Origin: an uncultured Oscillospiraceae bacterium
GTDB taxonomy: Bacteria > Bacillota > Clostridia > Oscillospirales > Oscillospiraceae
Direction of reading: 5' to 3'
DNA length: 64,000 bases
Assembly (NCBI GenBank): GCA_947632005.1
Contig: CANRNU010000011.1
Location: forward strand, 1-64,000
In this document: piece after piece, positions 58,989 through 63,946 of the stretch
Position numbering within the stretch: position 1 is the first letter of the stretch
Layout of the letters: every line of letters begins with the position of its first letter
The notes under the pieces: model-generated
What the model saw: the letters and a program-made list of their open reading frames with translations, nothing else
What the model was told of the DNA's origin: nothing
Database searches by the model: none
Program-made: the position numbers and the translations under genes

Positions 58989-59252
58989 CGTTTTCATTCT
59001 CCTCGATTGCTTTGAAAGGGATGTATCCTGACGCAAAACACGGATACATGACAGTCATTGACCCAATTCTATCAAACAATTGGAAAAAATCAAGGGGAAA
59101 AGTGTCGGGATTTGTCGGAATTCACAAAATACGTCCCATCCGCACGAATGCCGGCACGCCCACGGAGGAGCCCGCCTGGAACGGGACGCAGGATACATAA
59201 ACCGACAACGGGACACATAGGATGTACAAAAAATAACTCGGAGGTATGTCCT

Positions 59253-59789
59253 GTGAACAAATTCAAAGCTATGCTGATGAGACACCGCAAGCTTCTGGGG
59301 CCGACGGCTCTGGCGCTTGCGGTGGTGGCTATATTCTGGGTGGTGAACAGCCCGTCCATCGTGGGGGTGTCCGCGTCGGCGCGGAAGCTGCCCATCTACT
59401 CCGTCCAGCGGGACAACAAGGCGGTCAGCCTGACGTTCGACGCGGCGTGGGGCAATGAGGACACCCAAAAGCTCGTCGACATCTTGAAGCAGTACGGCGT
59501 CAGGGCGACGTTTTTCCTGGTGGGCGAGTGGGTGGACAAATATCCCCAGAGCGTCCAGGCGCTGCATGACGCGGGCATGGAGATCGGCAACCATTCCGAT
59601 ACCCACCCGCACATGGCAAAGCTCTCGGAGAAGCAGATCATAGACGAGGTGAGCCTCTGCAGCGGAAAGATCGAGAACATCACCGGGGAAGAGGTGAAGC
59701 TGTTCCGCTGCCCCTATGGGGAATACGACGACGAGGTCGTCACGACCATCCAGAACATGGGCATCTCTCCCATCCAGTGGGACGTGGAT
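59253..59789 (+). pseudogene. Polysaccharide deacetylase (PdaB-like), 5' part interrupted by the mobile element
   Basis: The start is GTG 59253, 8 bases after GGAGG. The first 179 codons are host sequence: an N-terminal membrane anchor (about 12-32), then a NodB/CE4 domain with SLTFDAAWGNE, GNHSDTHPHM and RCPYGEYDD active-site motifs. PdaB-type enzymes act in spore cortex maturation. At 59787-59789 the sequence turns into the mobile element, and the frame ends at 59849 after 19 foreign residues, removing the C-terminal part of the fold. The remainder resumes at 63944. As it stands the product is probably non-functional unless the element excises. Confidence 0.85.
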
Positions 59790-59803
59790 ACACTTGATAC
59801 AGA
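59787..59803. other. Left attachment site and terminal inverted repeat
   Basis: Core GA(T) at 59787-59789, two bases, then CACTTGATACAGA (59791-59803). This half-site mirrors the right end. Confidence 0.8.
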
Positions 59804-59941
59804 GTTAAACAGCGGTTATAATGGTGCTGAGGTTAGATATGGTATCTAACGTCTATAATGCAACCATTACAGACGATGAAAGAGTGCAAGTCTACCGCCA
59901 GATACTCAGAATTTTCTTATCAAGTGGAGGTAGCACGAAAG

Positions 59942-61444
59942 ATGGCAAAGACGACGAGCCTGAAAACATTGCGGAAGGATGCGGTGTACGCACGGCAGAG
60001 CCTTGACAAAAAGGATTCTCTATCCATTGAGGCCCAAGTTGACATGGGATTGAAGCGGGCAGACGAGGGAGCAGAGATTTACAAGGACAAGGGCTATTCG
60101 GGCAAAAACACTGACCGACCTGATTTGCAGCGATTGAAAGCGGACATTGAAGCTGACAAAATCAAGAGGGTCATTGTCTACCGCCTTGACCGTATCAGTC
60201 GGAATATCGCCGACTTTTATCAACTCTATCAGTTGATGGAAGTACATAAGTGTGAGTTCATTTCTATCAGTGAGCAGTTTGAAACATCTACCCCTATGGG
60301 GCGGGCAATGATGGGTATCCTGATTGTGTTCGCGCAAATGGAGCGAGAAAGCATACAGGAGCGGGTAAAGGACAATTACTATTATCGGATCAAAGATGAT
60401 GGACGGTGGCCAGGCGGGCCAGCACCAAAGGGATTTGATAACGCTAGGACAAAGGACAGAAAGCCCACGTTGAAGCCAAACTCCGATATAGAAATGGTTA
60501 AGCTGGCGTTTGATTGGTATGGAAATGACGCAAGCACCAGTTTGGCAAAGGTGGCAACAAGGCTCTTTGAAAAGGGCTATCGGAGCAGTCGAAAGAACGG
60601 ACGCTTTGATAGTGTGACGATTGCGAGAATACTTCAGAATCCCGTCTATGCGGTCGCTGACAATCTGCTCTACAAGTACTATAAAATGCGTAAAGCCCAC
60701 ATATCCCATGATGAGGATTTGTGGGACGGTTCGACCTCCGCGCATATCGTGGGGAAAAGGGCAGGGAACGCAAACACACGCAAATATACCTCTCTGGAGG
60801 AGCAGACTGTTTACAGAACAAATTTTGCGGGCGTAGTACCAAGCACCTTGTTTATAACCGTGCAGGAACGATTGGCAAGGAACGAAAAAATGGGCCGCGC
60901 CAACGCTCCCAGCAAGATGATGGAACTGGCGGGACTTGTAAAGTGCGCCAAATGCGGATACGCGATCCGAGCGAACAATTTCCCGCATTTGAATTGCTAT
61001 GGGCGTTCGACACTGCATTCCTGTGACGCTTCGATAACCATAGACTTTATGGCTTTACAGGAAAAGGTAGCAGTTGAAGTACAAAAGCAGTTAGATATAA
61101 TCGCAAGGAAATTCCTCGATGACAGCATTAAGGCGACAAAGAATACTAAAGAGATAGAGAGAATCAACGGCGAAATTGCTCGCCTAGTCGATTTAGCTGC
61201 GCTTGGAGAGACACCGATAGACCAGATCAGTAAGGCAATTGACGAACGCAAACGGCGTATTGATGAAATAGAGCTTTCCCAGCAAAGAGGGCTCACGTTT
61301 ATGGAGCAAGCGAAAATCAGTGTTTCTCTCCCGCTTGTATATAGCCGATTGAATAACGAACAGAAGAAATCGGTTGTGAATCTTCTCATCAAAAAGGTTT
61401 TACTAAGCGAAAACGGTGATATTGAAATCATTTGGAAAATCTAA
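59942..61444 (+). CDS. Large serine recombinase
   Basis: The product is 500 aa from ATG 59942, behind GGAGG at 59926-59930. An N-terminal resolvase domain has YARQS with the nucleophile S20, VYRLDRISRN and the arginine-rich FAQMERESIQERV. A Recombinase domain (about 165-270) with GPAPKGFD and YRSSRKNGRFDSVTIARILQ follows, then a zinc-ribbon (CAKCGYAIR ... CYGRSTLHSC, about 338-362) and a coiled-coil tail. This is the expected layout for integrases of Tn4451-like elements and skin-type elements. It is the first gene inside the left end and presumably catalyses integration and excision at the GA core. Confidence 0.95.
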   Translation: MAKTTSLKTLRKDAVYARQSLDKKDSLSIEAQVDMGLKRADEGAEIYKDKGYSGKNTDRPDLQRLKADIEADKIKRVIVYRLDRISRNIADFYQLYQLMEVHKCEFISISEQFETSTPMGRAMMGILIVFAQMERESIQERVKDNYYYRIKDDGRWPGGPAPKGFDNARTKDRKPTLKPNSDIEMVKLAFDWYGNDASTSLAKVATRLFEKGYRSSRKNGRFDSVTIARILQNPVYAVADNLLYKYYKMRKAHISHDEDLWDGSTSAHIVGKRAGNANTRKYTSLEEQTVYRTNFAGVVPSTLFITVQERLARNEKMGRANAPSKMMELAGLVKCAKCGYAIRANNFPHLNCYGRSTLHSCDASITIDFMALQEKVAVEVQKQLDIIARKFLDDSIKATKNTKEIERINGEIARLVDLAALGETPIDQISKAIDERKRRIDEIELSQQRGLTFMEQAKISVSLPLVYSRLNNEQKKSVVNLLIKKVLLSENGDIEIIWKI

Positions 61445-61496
61445 CTTCACATTAAGTCAATGCAGACCATTCTAGAGGTCGAGGCTAGAAATGAGC

Positions 61497-61546
61497 AGAG
61501 CTTTCCCGTCTCTACAACTTTGTAAAGATTGGGAAAGCTCTTTCTT
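61497..61546 (+). terminator. Terminator of the serine recombinase gene
   Basis: Perfect 11-bp stem AGAGCTTTCCC (61497-61507) with GGGAAAGCTCT (61531-61541), followed by TTCTTC. Confidence 0.75.
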
Positions 61547-61920
61547 CAACACCGATTATTCCGTCGGCCTGAGTGTAGTTTCTGATTGTTCTATTCGCTC
61601 GCGGATTTTTCATGCCCGCGCATACATACCGTTCTTCCGAACATTGCTCAACTGGCTCATTGCTTTTTATATGTATGTTCCTGTTCCAGTATCCACCCCA
61701 TGCTTTTTTATTATTGTCAGTTTTGGCTGTCACGTCTGACTGAGGCACAGTACACCATAATAGAAGATGGCATACAATACCGTGGATTTACTGCGGCGGC
61801 TCCACACACCCATGGGTTGAATGACTTGACGGGATTTGCAACCCGCTACGAGAGACCCTGTAGCTTAAAACTCTCGCCTTATTTACCGTGATAAAAAACG
61901 GTTTTAGAAACACTGTACTT
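61547..61920. other. Noncoding stretch inside the element
   Basis: About 370 bases with short frames on both strands, none having a ribosome-binding site or recognisable protein. A short hairpin-capable stretch around 61830-61880 (GGGATTTGCAACCCGC) is visible. Nothing else can be supported. Confidence 0.5.
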
Positions 61921-62012
61921 ATATATCCATTGACTTATACAAAATGTATCATTGAGATCACATTTTGTAATTTAATTTTATAACATAAAATTATGAATTG
62001 CAATGGATATAT
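61921..62012. repeat. Nested inverted repeats upstream of the oriT-like region
   Basis: Outer arms ATATATCCATTG (61921-61932) and CAATGGATATAT (62001-62012) enclose ACAAAATGT/ACATTTTGT (61939-61947 and 61960-61968) and the palindrome AATTTTAT-AAC-ATAAAATT (61974-61992). The AT-rich, cruciform-capable block lies just before the relaxase region. Confidence 0.8.
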
Positions 62013-62023
62013 CAAAGGGGTCA

Positions 62024-62068
62024 AGGGGCTTGCCCCTGCCCACGTCGAGCTTTGCTCGACAGAGTGGG
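62024..62068. other. Candidate origin of transfer (oriT)
   Basis: Two adjacent stems, AGGGGC-TT-GCCCCT (62024-62037) and CCCACGTCGAGC-TTT-GCTCGAC...GTGGG (62039-62068), directly upstream of the MobV relaxase gene, the usual location of its target. The nick site cannot be read reliably. Confidence 0.5.
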
Positions 62069-62084
62069 TTCTCTATCGGAACTG

Positions 62085-62114
62085 TTGCGTCCGTGCGGGC
62101 TGGCCTTGTATAAT
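62085..62114 (+). promoter_or_regulatory. Promoter of the relaxase gene
   Basis: TTGCGT at 62085-62090 and TATAAT at 62109-62114 with 18-bp spacing. The predicted transcript begins with a perfect 8-bp hairpin GCAGGGGT-GTG-ACCCCTGC (62121-62139) before the ribosome-binding site. Confidence 0.65.
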
Positions 62115-62162
62115 GATAGTGCAGGGGTGTGACCCCTGCGCTATACCTATACAAGGAGGTTG

Positions 62163-62186
62163 ATGGAATCAACATTGCAATTATGA
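62163..62186 (+). CDS. Seven-residue leader peptide coupled to the relaxase
   Basis: ATG 62163 lies 3 bases after AAGGAGG (62153-62159), the only good ribosome-binding site here, and encodes MESTLQL. Its stop TGA overlaps the relaxase ATG at 62183 (ATGA), so relaxase translation would depend on termination of the leader. The spacing to the SD is short, so direct initiation at 62183 cannot be excluded. Confidence 0.45.
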   Translation: MESTLQL

Positions 62187-63121
62187 CTTGTCAGAATTAC
62201 AGCTGCAAGGACGCAAACAGTGTAGAGAGAGAACAGGAACGCACTTTGACCGTCAAGGACTTGTCCCACGTCAACTATGACCCCGCCAAATCGTCCCATA
62301 ACGTGGTCTTGGAGCATGACCGACGAGCGGATGGGTTTACTACGTTCAGAGCTTATGTGAAGGACTACAAGGAGCGAGAGGGCGTGACAGGCCGTTTCAA
62401 TGTGGATACATCCAGCGACAGGAACGCAACCAAAGTGTTGTCTTGTTTCGTGATGTCTGGCAGCCATGACCTGATAGCGAGCATGACGAGAGCCGAGCAA
62501 ATTAAGTATTTCAGAGCAGGGCTGGACTTTCTCAAAGAAGAATACCCATCCTTTCATATTGTGGACGCCCGCATACACTACGATGAAAAGGGTCTGCCTC
62601 ACATGCACACATCCATGCTCCCGATACACATCAAAGAGGACGGGAGCAAGAGCTTTAATGTCAGTCAGCACCAAAGGGGCAAGGACTATTTTAGGGGGTT
62701 TCAAGATCGGTTCTATGAATACATGAAAGAGCGTTATCCAGATAAGGCGTTGGAGCGCACAGATCCTAACAAAGACCACGATAAGAAGCTAACCGTCAAG
62801 GAGTACAAGGAGAACCAAGACCTTAAACACGAGTTGGAGCAGGAGCGTCAACGTCTGCTCGCCAAGGGAGAACGCTTAAAGGATATAGGGCACCGATTAA
62901 ATGAGGCTTATGAGCGGTCTGAACAGGCATACCAGTACAATCTCCAAGTGGAGCGATACTGTCAGGAGCAAGGGCTTACACTGGCGCAGTATGAGAAGCA
63001 ATGCTTCTGGGCGGATCGCGGATATGGGGAATACCCAGAACCAGAAGGCAGAAATCCAGACAGGGATAAGGAACAGGAGAGAGGGCTGGAGCCTGACGAT
63101 AGAGGGGAAAGGGAGCGATAA
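62183..63121 (+). CDS. MobV/Pre-type plasmid mobilization relaxase
   Basis: The 312-aa relaxase nicks the transfer origin and pilots the strand during conjugative mobilization. The MobV motif III (metal-binding histidines) is HYDEKGLPHMH near residues 131-141; the N-terminal DLSHVNYDPAKSSHNVVLEHDR fits the Mob/Pre family. The C-terminal third is charged and probably coiled (EQERQRLLAKGERLKDIGHRL). It is shorter than many Mob proteins (about 400 aa) and resembles TnpZ of Tn4451-type elements in position. No mating-pore genes are present, so transfer would need a helper element. Confidence 0.9.
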   Translation: MTCQNYSCKDANSVEREQERTLTVKDLSHVNYDPAKSSHNVVLEHDRRADGFTTFRAYVKDYKEREGVTGRFNVDTSSDRNATKVLSCFVMSGSHDLIASMTRAEQIKYFRAGLDFLKEEYPSFHIVDARIHYDEKGLPHMHTSMLPIHIKEDGSKSFNVSQHQRGKDYFRGFQDRFYEYMKERYPDKALERTDPNKDHDKKLTVKEYKENQDLKHELEQERQRLLAKGERLKDIGHRLNEAYERSEQAYQYNLQVERYCQEQGLTLAQYEKQCFWADRGYGEYPEPEGRNPDRDKEQERGLEPDDRGERER

Positions 63122-63170
63122 AGTCAAAACGCCGTCCGCTGGGAACACTTTGTGTTTCTATTGGGTGGCG

Positions 63171-63199
63171 TTGACTTCGGAGGTGGGCTGTGCTACTAT
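63171..63199 (+). promoter_or_regulatory. Promoter of the element's regulator gene
   Basis: TTGACT at 63171-63176 and TACTAT at 63194-63199 with 17-bp spacing, in the gap after the relaxase gene. Confidence 0.55.
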
Positions 63200-63226
63200 T
63201 GCGGAAAGGCAAATCGGGAGTTGCTG

Positions 63227-63246
63227 ACTTAACAACAGTGTTAAGT
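63227..63246. promoter_or_regulatory. Palindromic operator candidate
   Basis: ACTTAACA-ACAG-TGTTAAGT, a perfect 8-bp inverted repeat about 30 bases after the predicted -10 box and 75 bases before the regulator start. Size and symmetry suit a Cro/CI-type dimer, implying autoregulation. Confidence 0.55.
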
Positions 63247-63321
63247 TAAATGGCGTTCTGCGTGCTGTTTCTTACAATCACGCTTTGCTATCATAGAGGT
63301 ACAAAGCTCAGGAGGTCATGT

Positions 63322-63723
63322 ATGGATATTGGTCGGGCTATAAAGGAGTTAAGACAAAAAAGAGGCATTACACAGGAGGAATTATCGGATACGTTGCGGG
63401 TATCTATCCAGACGATTTCCCGCTGGGAGAACGGCGTGAATGCCCCTGACCTGTCAATGCTCCCACAACTTGCCTTATATTTCAGAGTGACCACAGACTA
63501 TTTGCTGGGCGTGGAAAGGAATGAGACTATGGCAAAACTGATAAAAACCACAGAGACGTTTGAGTTGGCGTCCAAACAGGAAGCCGAAGAAATGGTGCTA
63601 AAATTCAAGGGAGAGAAATTCCCTGTGTTGAAGGACTACAAGATTACCGCTGATGGAGATAAGGTGATATTGGAAGTTACAAAGGAGTTCAACAGCGATT
63701 TGGAGAGCATGAAGTTCAACTAA
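63322..63723 (+). CDS. XRE (Cro/CI)-family transcriptional regulator
   Basis: The product is 133 aa from ATG 63322, 7 bases after AGGAGG. An N-terminal HTH_3 domain (about 1-62) with ITQEELSDTLRVSIQTISRWENG is followed by YLLGVER and a C-terminal alpha/beta segment of about 65 residues with no recognised ligand site (FPVLKDYKITADGDKVILEVT). It probably controls the element's own genes through the palindrome at 63227-63246. Confidence 0.9.
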   Translation: MDIGRAIKELRQKRGITQEELSDTLRVSIQTISRWENGVNAPDLSMLPQLALYFRVTTDYLLGVERNETMAKLIKTTETFELASKQEAEEMVLKFKGEKFPVLKDYKITADGDKVILEVTKEFNSDLESMKFN

Positions 63724-63928
63724 TTTATAGAGTTCGACAACTTCCCATTTGTCGGGCTGGCGGTTGTTAAGCGTCGGTTTTGAAACACCTTTTCTTTGAC
63801 CCTGAGAGCAGCAGACAACTAACAGAGAAAAATTGCCCTGATTTCGGCAGGATGGGTTTGAATTCCGTCCATGTTCTAATTGCCCGTCGGGGTGGTTTTA
63901 AATCAATCCAGGAAAATTTTTCTTTACA
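63724..63928. other. Noncoding right end of the element
   Basis: About 200 bases between the regulator and the right terminal repeat. I see no credible gene. A small inverted pair GACAA...TTGTC just after the regulator stop (63736-63753) may aid termination. Confidence 0.45.
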
Positions 63929-63946
63929 TCTATATCAAATGATGAT
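63929..63946. other. Right terminal inverted repeat and attachment site
   Basis: TCTATATCAAATG (63929-63941), two bases, then the core GAT (63944-63946). Its reverse complement CATTTGATATAGA matches the left repeat CACTTGATACAGA at 11 of 13 positions. Confidence 0.8.

Follow-up and report, generated by a model that had tools for sequence, protein, structure and literature searches.

To our knowledge, only a few cases of sporulation-linked excision are known, and they come from Bacillus, Clostridioides and Clostridium. Tn4451 and Tn4453, with which the present locus also has to be compared, combine a serine recombinase with a Mob protein, a GA core and resistance cargo, and Tn4451 elements target many loosely matched GA sites. 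During sporulation, the skin element in sigK and SPbeta in spsM are excised by a serine recombinase (excerpts of PMC5025042 and PMC4191935), and their directionality factors are under sporulation control (excerpts of PMC5595907). The gin element of Bacillus cereus, inserted in gerE, is described in excerpts of the latter source as a non-phage element, whose serine recombinase GirC and the 42-aa GirX restore the gene precisely in sporulation. In Clostridium botulinum, a clostridial species, the sporulation gene yabG is likewise interrupted, by the yin element (excerpts of PMC10747680).

Here we describe an element within pdaB, a spore-wall gene for a PdaB-like deacetylase, in the genome (G000) of an Oscillospiraceae gut bacterium. 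The window, meaning the whole stretch of DNA that was analysed, comprises 64,000 nucleotides. As in gin, a non-phage element with a serine recombinase lies within a sporulation gene; however, the gene and the bacterial class are different, pdaB has two insertion sites, the large serine recombinase (LSR) families are tied to the gene across a family or order, and the window copy has a relaxase (gin as described in excerpts of PMC5595907). While skin and SPbeta are prophages or prophage-like, no phage proteins were met among the element proteins scanned, which were a sample, and yin differs in being prophage-like and in residing in another gene (excerpts of PMC10747680). With Tn4451/Tn4453, the window element shares the serine recombinase, the Mob protein and the GA core, but its target choice is fixed and it bears no evident resistance cargo. 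Among the open-licence PMC papers listed by our searches, none described a pdaB intervening element. The insertion base shared among relatives suggests a system for spore formation in which cutting out the element switches the gene on.

The interrupted gene and its element in the window

All features of the locus are compiled in Table 1. At the left junction, the host codons CAG TGG GAC GTG lead into a GAT (59787-59789), and at the right junction a second GAT (63944-63946) continues with TCC CTG GAC TGG AAG GAC CTG. Joining both flanks yields an open frame of 259 aa, and the element between them encodes its own site-specific recombinase. The gene is uninterrupted in 19 of 35 same-genus genomes, among them the nearest relative G017, which reads GTG GAT TCG CTG GAC TGG AAG across the empty site. 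A sequence-only reading had proposed a precise integration of 4157 bp into a deacetylase gene, from GAT to GAT with a GA core, and junctions, rejoined frame and empty relatives agree with it, as does the SLDWK continuation encoded by G017. Its account of the gene content, namely a serine recombinase, a MobV relaxase and an HTH regulator with no evident cargo gene, was borne out as well. It overlooked, however, the sporulation role of the target gene and the fact that in other species this base, and a second position in the gene, are occupied by other elements. The host assembly is a metagenome-assembled genome (MAG; 77.6% complete, 5.1% contaminated, 90 contigs).

Table 1: Features of the pdaB locus in the window.
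Feature	Position	Strand	Basis
Sigma-E-type promoter of pdaB (ATA, 16 nt, CATAGGAT)	59197..59223	+	Motif match
5' part of PdaB-like sporulation deacetylase gene, codons 1-178	59253..59786	+	PF01522; best NCBIfam model TIGR02764 PdaB
Integrated element, 4157 bp core to core incl. one core copy	59787..63943	+	Junction comparison
Left core GA; ACAG at +12, as in 11/17 site-B elements	59787..59788	+	End comparison
Sigma-A-type promoter TTGATA-17-TATAAT, upstream of recombinase	59794..59822	+	11/12 consensus matches
Large serine recombinase (LSR), ~500 aa, frame open from 59858	59942..61444	+	PF00239 + PF07508; member of family profile A2 (654 bits)
MobV-type relaxase, 330 aa	62129..63121	+	PF01076, 56.5 bits; NCBIfam MobV 69.1 bits, below the cut-off of 100
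Cro/CI-type HTH regulator, 133 aa	63322..63723	+	PF01381, 63.5 bits
Right core GA	63944..63945	+	End comparison
3' part of pdaB (SLDWKDL...), running on to 64189 of contig C11	63946..64000	+	

Several lines of evidence indicate that the host gene is a sporulation gene. PdaB is its best model, although an intact relative scores 207.8 against TIGR02764 and thus below the curated cut-off of 237.4. A sigma-E-type motif lies upstream of pdaB in all 18 genus regions, window included, compared with a mean of 0.08 and a maximum of 1 in 500 mononucleotide shuffles; the pattern was written post hoc, after the alignment had been inspected. Furthermore, SpoIVA was found in 49 of 50 genomes tested, including G000. 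The family IPR014228 is taken by us to be ylxY. SwsB, assigned to this family in excerpts of PMC12444981, was rejected as the host gene, with PdaB fitting better as a model.

With an integrase and a relaxase but no conjugation machinery, the window copy has the gene set of an integrative and mobilizable element. The only other non-overlapping ORF of at least 70 aa encodes 101 aa, and neither this ORF nor one of 62 aa gave a Pfam match above cut-off. Promoter-like sites, scored by consensus match only, numbered 9 versus 5.5 in shuffles.

Recombinase families and fixed insertion sites in relatives

The LSR family of this site, referred to as site B, is present in 33 of 400 family genomes, 7 of which had contributed to the LSR profile, and every one of the 33 has its pdaB split at codon ~180. 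Both pdaB halves were found in 28 of them, only the 5' half in two and only the 3' half in three, and LSR and a pdaB half share one contig in 30. The 150 matches listed include 148 genomes with a full-length pdaB, and the 33 do not overlap with these. At the order level, the split was seen in 10 of 12 genomes with an LSR match. Insertion at one codon in so many relatives far exceeds what chance would give. The elements of relatives occupy exactly the same pdaB base, and the GA core is found in 17 of 17 site-B elements. Another split, at codon ~67 (site A), occurs in other species and goes together with a second LSR family; some genomes, such as G324, hold pdaB in three pieces. Interruptions are scattered over the pdaB tree, and the site-A elements have recently spread between species.

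A few loci depart from this pattern. For three site-A LSR copies (two in G137, one in G414), the retrieved surrounding stretch contained no pdaB piece, and four genomes (G136, G334, G436 and G379) showed the site-B split without a match to the site-B LSR. Further partial pdaB genes, not assigned to a split class, occur in G036, G093, G095, G252, G290 and G487. One stop each lies within the aligned stretch of G310 (5' half) and G362 (3' half), possibly reflecting spill-over into the element.

The LSR is the only gene common to all 17 elements; most of the other clusters found in more than one element are apparently the LSR in alternative frames. Against solved structures, the LSR profile scored highest with the TP901-1 integrase (99 bits), followed by SPbeta YokA (79 bits), both above TnpX (45 bits); as the TnpX entry comprises only a 120-aa fragment, the LSR may nevertheless be kin to TnpX. 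The best identities were ~35% to plasmid proteins (among the best 15 matches listed) and ~31% to phage proteins (among the best 10 listed).

Selection on split pdaB and the region before the recombinase

Two species pairs with vertical inheritance of the element were informative. For G025/G029, the dN/dS of split pdaB was 0.051 (5 nonsynonymous and 27 synonymous changes), with similar dS for pdaB (0.172) and LSR (0.181). For G201/G324, which are collinear over ~14.5 kb, dN/dS was 0.014 (3 nonsynonymous and 47 synonymous changes, 182 codons) at a dS of 0.50 and 0.456, respectively. The pairs G201/G458 and G324/G458 were computed but left out, as LSR dS exceeded pdaB dS. Such strong purifying selection argues that split pdaB must still be used, and supports its continued function in these two pairs of relatives. 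On the G000 branch, pdaB showed no relaxation (33.5 synonymous and 10.5 nonsynonymous changes versus 23 and 8 in G017).

Directly upstream of the LSR, a conserved small ORF occurs in 32 of 42 site-B loci, a sample that includes G359 without upstream sequence and excludes G244 and G399, for which there was no locus. A sigma-E-type motif precedes it in 18 of the 32. The small-ORF and promoter patterns were designed post hoc from the sequences, and the shuffles preserve base composition only; on reverse complements, the small-ORF pattern for site B still matched 8 of 42, above the shuffles. At site A, a small ORF was recognized by a regular expression in 15 of 23 loci and preceded by a sigma-E-type motif in 4 of the 15 (shuffles: mean 0.16, maximum 3), while no such motif was found within 160 nt upstream of the 23 LSRs. 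The encoded small protein is a candidate directionality factor.

Before the window LSR, a profile search found no small-ORF homologue, and no sigma-E-type motif was found. An ORF at 59821-60006, which resembled the small ORF by eye, was rejected, as it was not listed by a profile trained without the window (matches to E ~25). In the tree, a long branch sets the window LSR apart from the other LSRs of the genus, and it has thus probably arrived sideways; since G017, the nearest sister, lacks the element, the insertion may be of recent date. The window copy is best read as a divergent, mobilizable member at the same site, with a relaxase, its own repressor and a sigma-A-type promoter, that could also move between hosts. 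It may nevertheless share the developmental control, excision included.

Proposed developmental excision and competing explanations

We consider it probable that the window holds a site-specific integrative element whose LSR family is dedicated to pdaB codon ~180 in Oscillospirales, and that the family is skin-like, with excision restoring pdaB when cells sporulate. The LSR would recombine at the GA dinucleotide inside pdaB, and this reaction, run in reverse, would take out the element and restore the reading frame precisely. Growing cells would carry the elements, as with skin-type intervening elements. Excision would be carried out by the LSR and the product of the preceding small ORF, expressed from the sigma-E-type promoter, and the mother cell, which needs pdaB, is the most likely place for it. 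No excised form was seen.

There is perhaps an even chance that pdaB of Oscillospirales is, more broadly, a standing target of developmental excision. Two recombinase-plus-small-protein modules would then each own one base, islands of ordinary genes would be kept by the lineage and discarded by the mother cell, some genomes would need two excisions per enzyme, and the window copy would be a small relaxase-bearing element entering this niche. The element of G029 carries a PurL-type gene. If true, mobile elements would repeatedly settle in genes needed only by the dying mother cell, and Oscillospirales would add a recurrent case, distinguished by two target sites within a single gene and by candidates for the directionality factor. 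The matched recombinases, att sites and candidate factor sets would also be test material for the direction control of serine recombinases.

Alternatively, an ordinary integrative and mobilizable element might have its attachment site in pdaB by coincidence, leaving a broken gene without developmental control. The relaxase, repressor and sigma-A-type promoter of the window copy, its lack of a detected small ORF, the recent horizontal spread of site-A elements and the scatter over the pdaB tree would all suit this explanation. However, it does not fit the strong purifying selection in the two vertical pairs, the sigma-E-type motif before the recombinase operon of relatives (18/32) or the retention of SpoIVA (49/50), and we regard it as rather unlikely.

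The earlier designation as a Tn4451-type element, i.e. a minimal TnpX transposon at one of many GA sites, was not retained. While the GA core and the Mob protein adjoining the serine recombinase recall these elements, the LSR family uses a single codon of a single gene in all 33 family genomes that have it, which makes membership very improbable; the ranking of TnpX, as a fragment, below the TP901-1 integrase and YokA is supporting only. No more credible is that the conserved pdaB halves act as separate proteins that make excision unnecessary, as there are two distinct split points and genomes such as G324 with three pieces, and the 3' part in the window has no in-frame ATG, GTG or TTG between the stop at 63899 and the junction. 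An assembly chimera, conceivable given the contamination of the host MAG, can practically be dismissed, since the split recurs across many assemblies, including G399 with ~2 contigs, and the elements share the core and have related ends; for the element family, a chimera is excluded already.

The window element and its host gene

The sequence-only reading had host codons stopping and resuming in frame at a pair of GAT codons 4157 bp apart, and this was borne out at both junctions. On the left, host codons GAC GTG run into GAT, and on the right the host frame restarts as GAT TCC CTG GAC TGG AAG, so that joining the flanks rebuilds a 259-aa frame. The proposed content of serine recombinase, MobV relaxase and HTH regulator likewise held, while two additional ORFs (101 and 62 aa) gave no Pfam match above cut-off. 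DNA stretches 89-91% identical to the end of the window MobV gene were found at another place in the window's own genome and in G007, pointing to the presence, now or in the past, of related mobile elements.

The interrupted gene encodes a polysaccharide deacetylase (PF01522). PdaB (TIGR02764) was the top NCBIfam model, but an intact relative scored 207.8 bits, short of the 237.4-bit cut-off; judged by these scores, the gene is therefore PdaB-like rather than a confirmed PdaB (pdaB below). A sigma-E-type promoter motif, searched for with a pattern composed after the alignment had been viewed, lies upstream of pdaB in all 18 members of the genus analysed (500 shuffles gave a mean of 0.08 and a maximum of 1). 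Of 50 genomes searched for SpoIVA, 42 with interrupted and 8 with intact pdaB, 49 gave a match, the window genome among them; only G104 (73% complete) gave none. In G104, a single contig carries both pdaB halves, their order swapped; the genome perhaps represents a rearranged non-sporulating lineage. A surplus 3' pdaB fragment in G032, with no att-like sequence by eye, accompanies an intact copy.

Coordinates and gene content of the features discussed
Feature	Location	Remark
Window element	59787-63943	4157 bp
Left-junction GAT	59787-59789	window
Host reading restarts	63944 onward	window
MobV-end-like DNA	G000:C20:7542-7769 (L296)	window's own genome
MobV-end-like DNA	G007:C87:9175-9288 (L295)	relative
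Locus with swapped pdaB halves	G104:C6:59644-59871, 101691-102206, 149685-151106	one contig
Surplus 3' pdaB fragment	G032:C6:3969-4199 (L051)	
spoIVA pieces	G443:C20:236830-237279 and 489491-489769 (L270, L285)	about 252 kb apart
Serine recombinase-like frame	L285:1684-3618	G443
Paired site-A-type recombinase genes	G137:C42:42052-45690 (L253)	side by side
PurL-type (FGAR-AT) gene	L154:13930-17625	inside site-B element of G029
Molybdopterin oxidoreductase with DctM transporter		G269 element
CoA-transferases		G458 element
Clp-type ATPase		G127 element
Glycosyltransferases		G030 element

Recurrence of the split near codon 180

The empty site expected in related strains was found: pdaB is whole in 19 of 35 same-genus genomes, and G017, the window genome's closest relative on the codon tree, has an empty site. 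The gene is interrupted in ten of the 35, near codon 180 (site B, as in the window) in G000, the window's own genome, G016, G018, G025, G029 and G030, and near codon 67 (site A) in G001, G011, G013, G033 and again G030. G023, with the 3' part only, may be an eleventh.

With the window's large serine recombinase (LSR) as query, 12/199 relatives matched at E<1e-80, and pdaB was split near codon 180 in all 12, G016 being counted on its 5' half only. A profile from these 12 genomes (A2), searched in 400 family genomes, separated 33 genomes scoring at least 654 bits (7 belong to the profile itself) from G370 at 504 bits and the rest at no more than 474. All 33 carry the codon-180 split and none a full-length gene; both halves were seen in 28, only the 5' half in G016 and G485, and only the 3' half in G300, G359 and G244. 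The LSR shares a contig with a pdaB half in 30/33 (exceptions G292, G430 and G244). Among the 150 pdaB matches listed, 148 are full-length or near-full-length genes, G370 being one of them and the 33 absent. At order level, 12/394 genomes reached 504 bits, 10 of them, spread over five families, with the codon-180 split. Of the 12, six had not turned up in earlier surveys: the LSR directly adjoins split pdaB in G566, G610, G759 and G698, and no split pdaB was in reach of it in G152 and G665 (contig of 3.3 kb).

The 17 delimited site-B elements span 3.3 to 37.4 kb, and only that of G396 (3.3 kb) is smaller than the window copy. GA occupies the same codon of both junctions in 17/17, ACAG follows at +12 from the left end in 11/17, including the window's, and inverted repeats surround the core by eye. 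Relatives' elements also encode SLH-domain surface proteins and an M60 peptidase; among the 24 ORFs scanned, chiefly large ones out of 174 kept from 13 elements, no phage or conjugation protein appeared, and five had no family.

Control, selection and a sporulation reading

An ORF of 33-53 aa begins 60-200 nt upstream of the LSR in 32/42 loci (shuffles averaged 0.15 with a maximum of 3, and reverse complements gave 8/42). It is preceded by a sigma-E-type motif in 18/32 (shuffles mean 0.29, max 3) and by TATAAT in 0/32 (shuffles mean 0.74). For gin, the intervening element in gerE of Bacillus cereus, PMC5595907 describes both the recombinase and a 42-aa factor as required; by this analogy, the small ORF may encode a directionality factor. 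The window copy differs from its relatives here: upstream of its LSR, neither a small-ORF homologue nor a sigma-E-type motif was found (a single match lies on the opposite strand at 62012), and the region holds TTGATA-17-TATAAT instead. The window LSR shares no more than 41% identity with any of the others and groups with order-level outgroups.

The G025/G029 element is collinear over about 17 kb at 91-93%, and its equal dS for LSR (0.181) and pdaB (0.172) points to descent from a common ancestor. Between the two split copies of pdaB, 27 differences are synonymous and 5 nonsynonymous, a ratio (dN/dS 0.051) like that of close pairs with intact pdaB (0.05-0.10). G201/G324 repeat this pattern: about 14.5 kb are collinear at 89-93% (dS 0.456 for LSR, 0.502 for pdaB), with 3 nonsynonymous and 47 synonymous differences over 182 codons (dN/dS 0.014). 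Split pdaB in both pairs is unlike a dead gene. On the window's branch, 33.5 synonymous and 10.5 nonsynonymous changes compare with 23 and 8 for G017, showing no relaxation, though the insertion may be recent.

Elements of this LSR family probably behave like skin, the element in sigK, with pdaB as their target. For the window copy alone this reading is less certain: it would be excised during sporulation, or it may simply be mobile, its target being harmless until sporulation. In G443, spoIVA lies in two pieces, the serine recombinase-like frame terminates at the right-hand junction, and inverted repeats are seen by eye at the junctions; an intervening element may thus interrupt this sporulation gene as well.

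The second site near codon 67

Site-A elements bear a different LSR family (profile A3, of which G030 is a member), reaching at least 663 bits in 18/330 family genomes, with the next score at 506. In 15/18 (14 plus G030), the sequence retrieved around the LSR includes a pdaB piece that starts or ends near codon 67, with alignments spilling over in G137, G324 and G355. Since no piece was in reach in G093, G199 and G379, nor beside three additional copies (two in G137:C42, one in G414, L259), target exclusivity is less strict than at site B. A small ORF precedes 15/23 site-A LSRs (regex), with the sigma-E-type motif in 4/15. In G033/G013, pdaB dS (0.37) far exceeds LSR dS (0.076); the element thus moved sideways more recently, making the pdaB dN/dS of 0.024 uninformative on the split state.

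Both splits occur together in some genomes, such as G324 with three pdaB pieces on one contig. Within the 19 kb fetched for the paired LSR genes of G137, no pdaB piece was seen; the pair may have another target or be a tandem. G013, already split at site A, holds a second pdaB fragment (C104, L036) with a site-B split, near-identical to that of G030 and likely a bin contamination.
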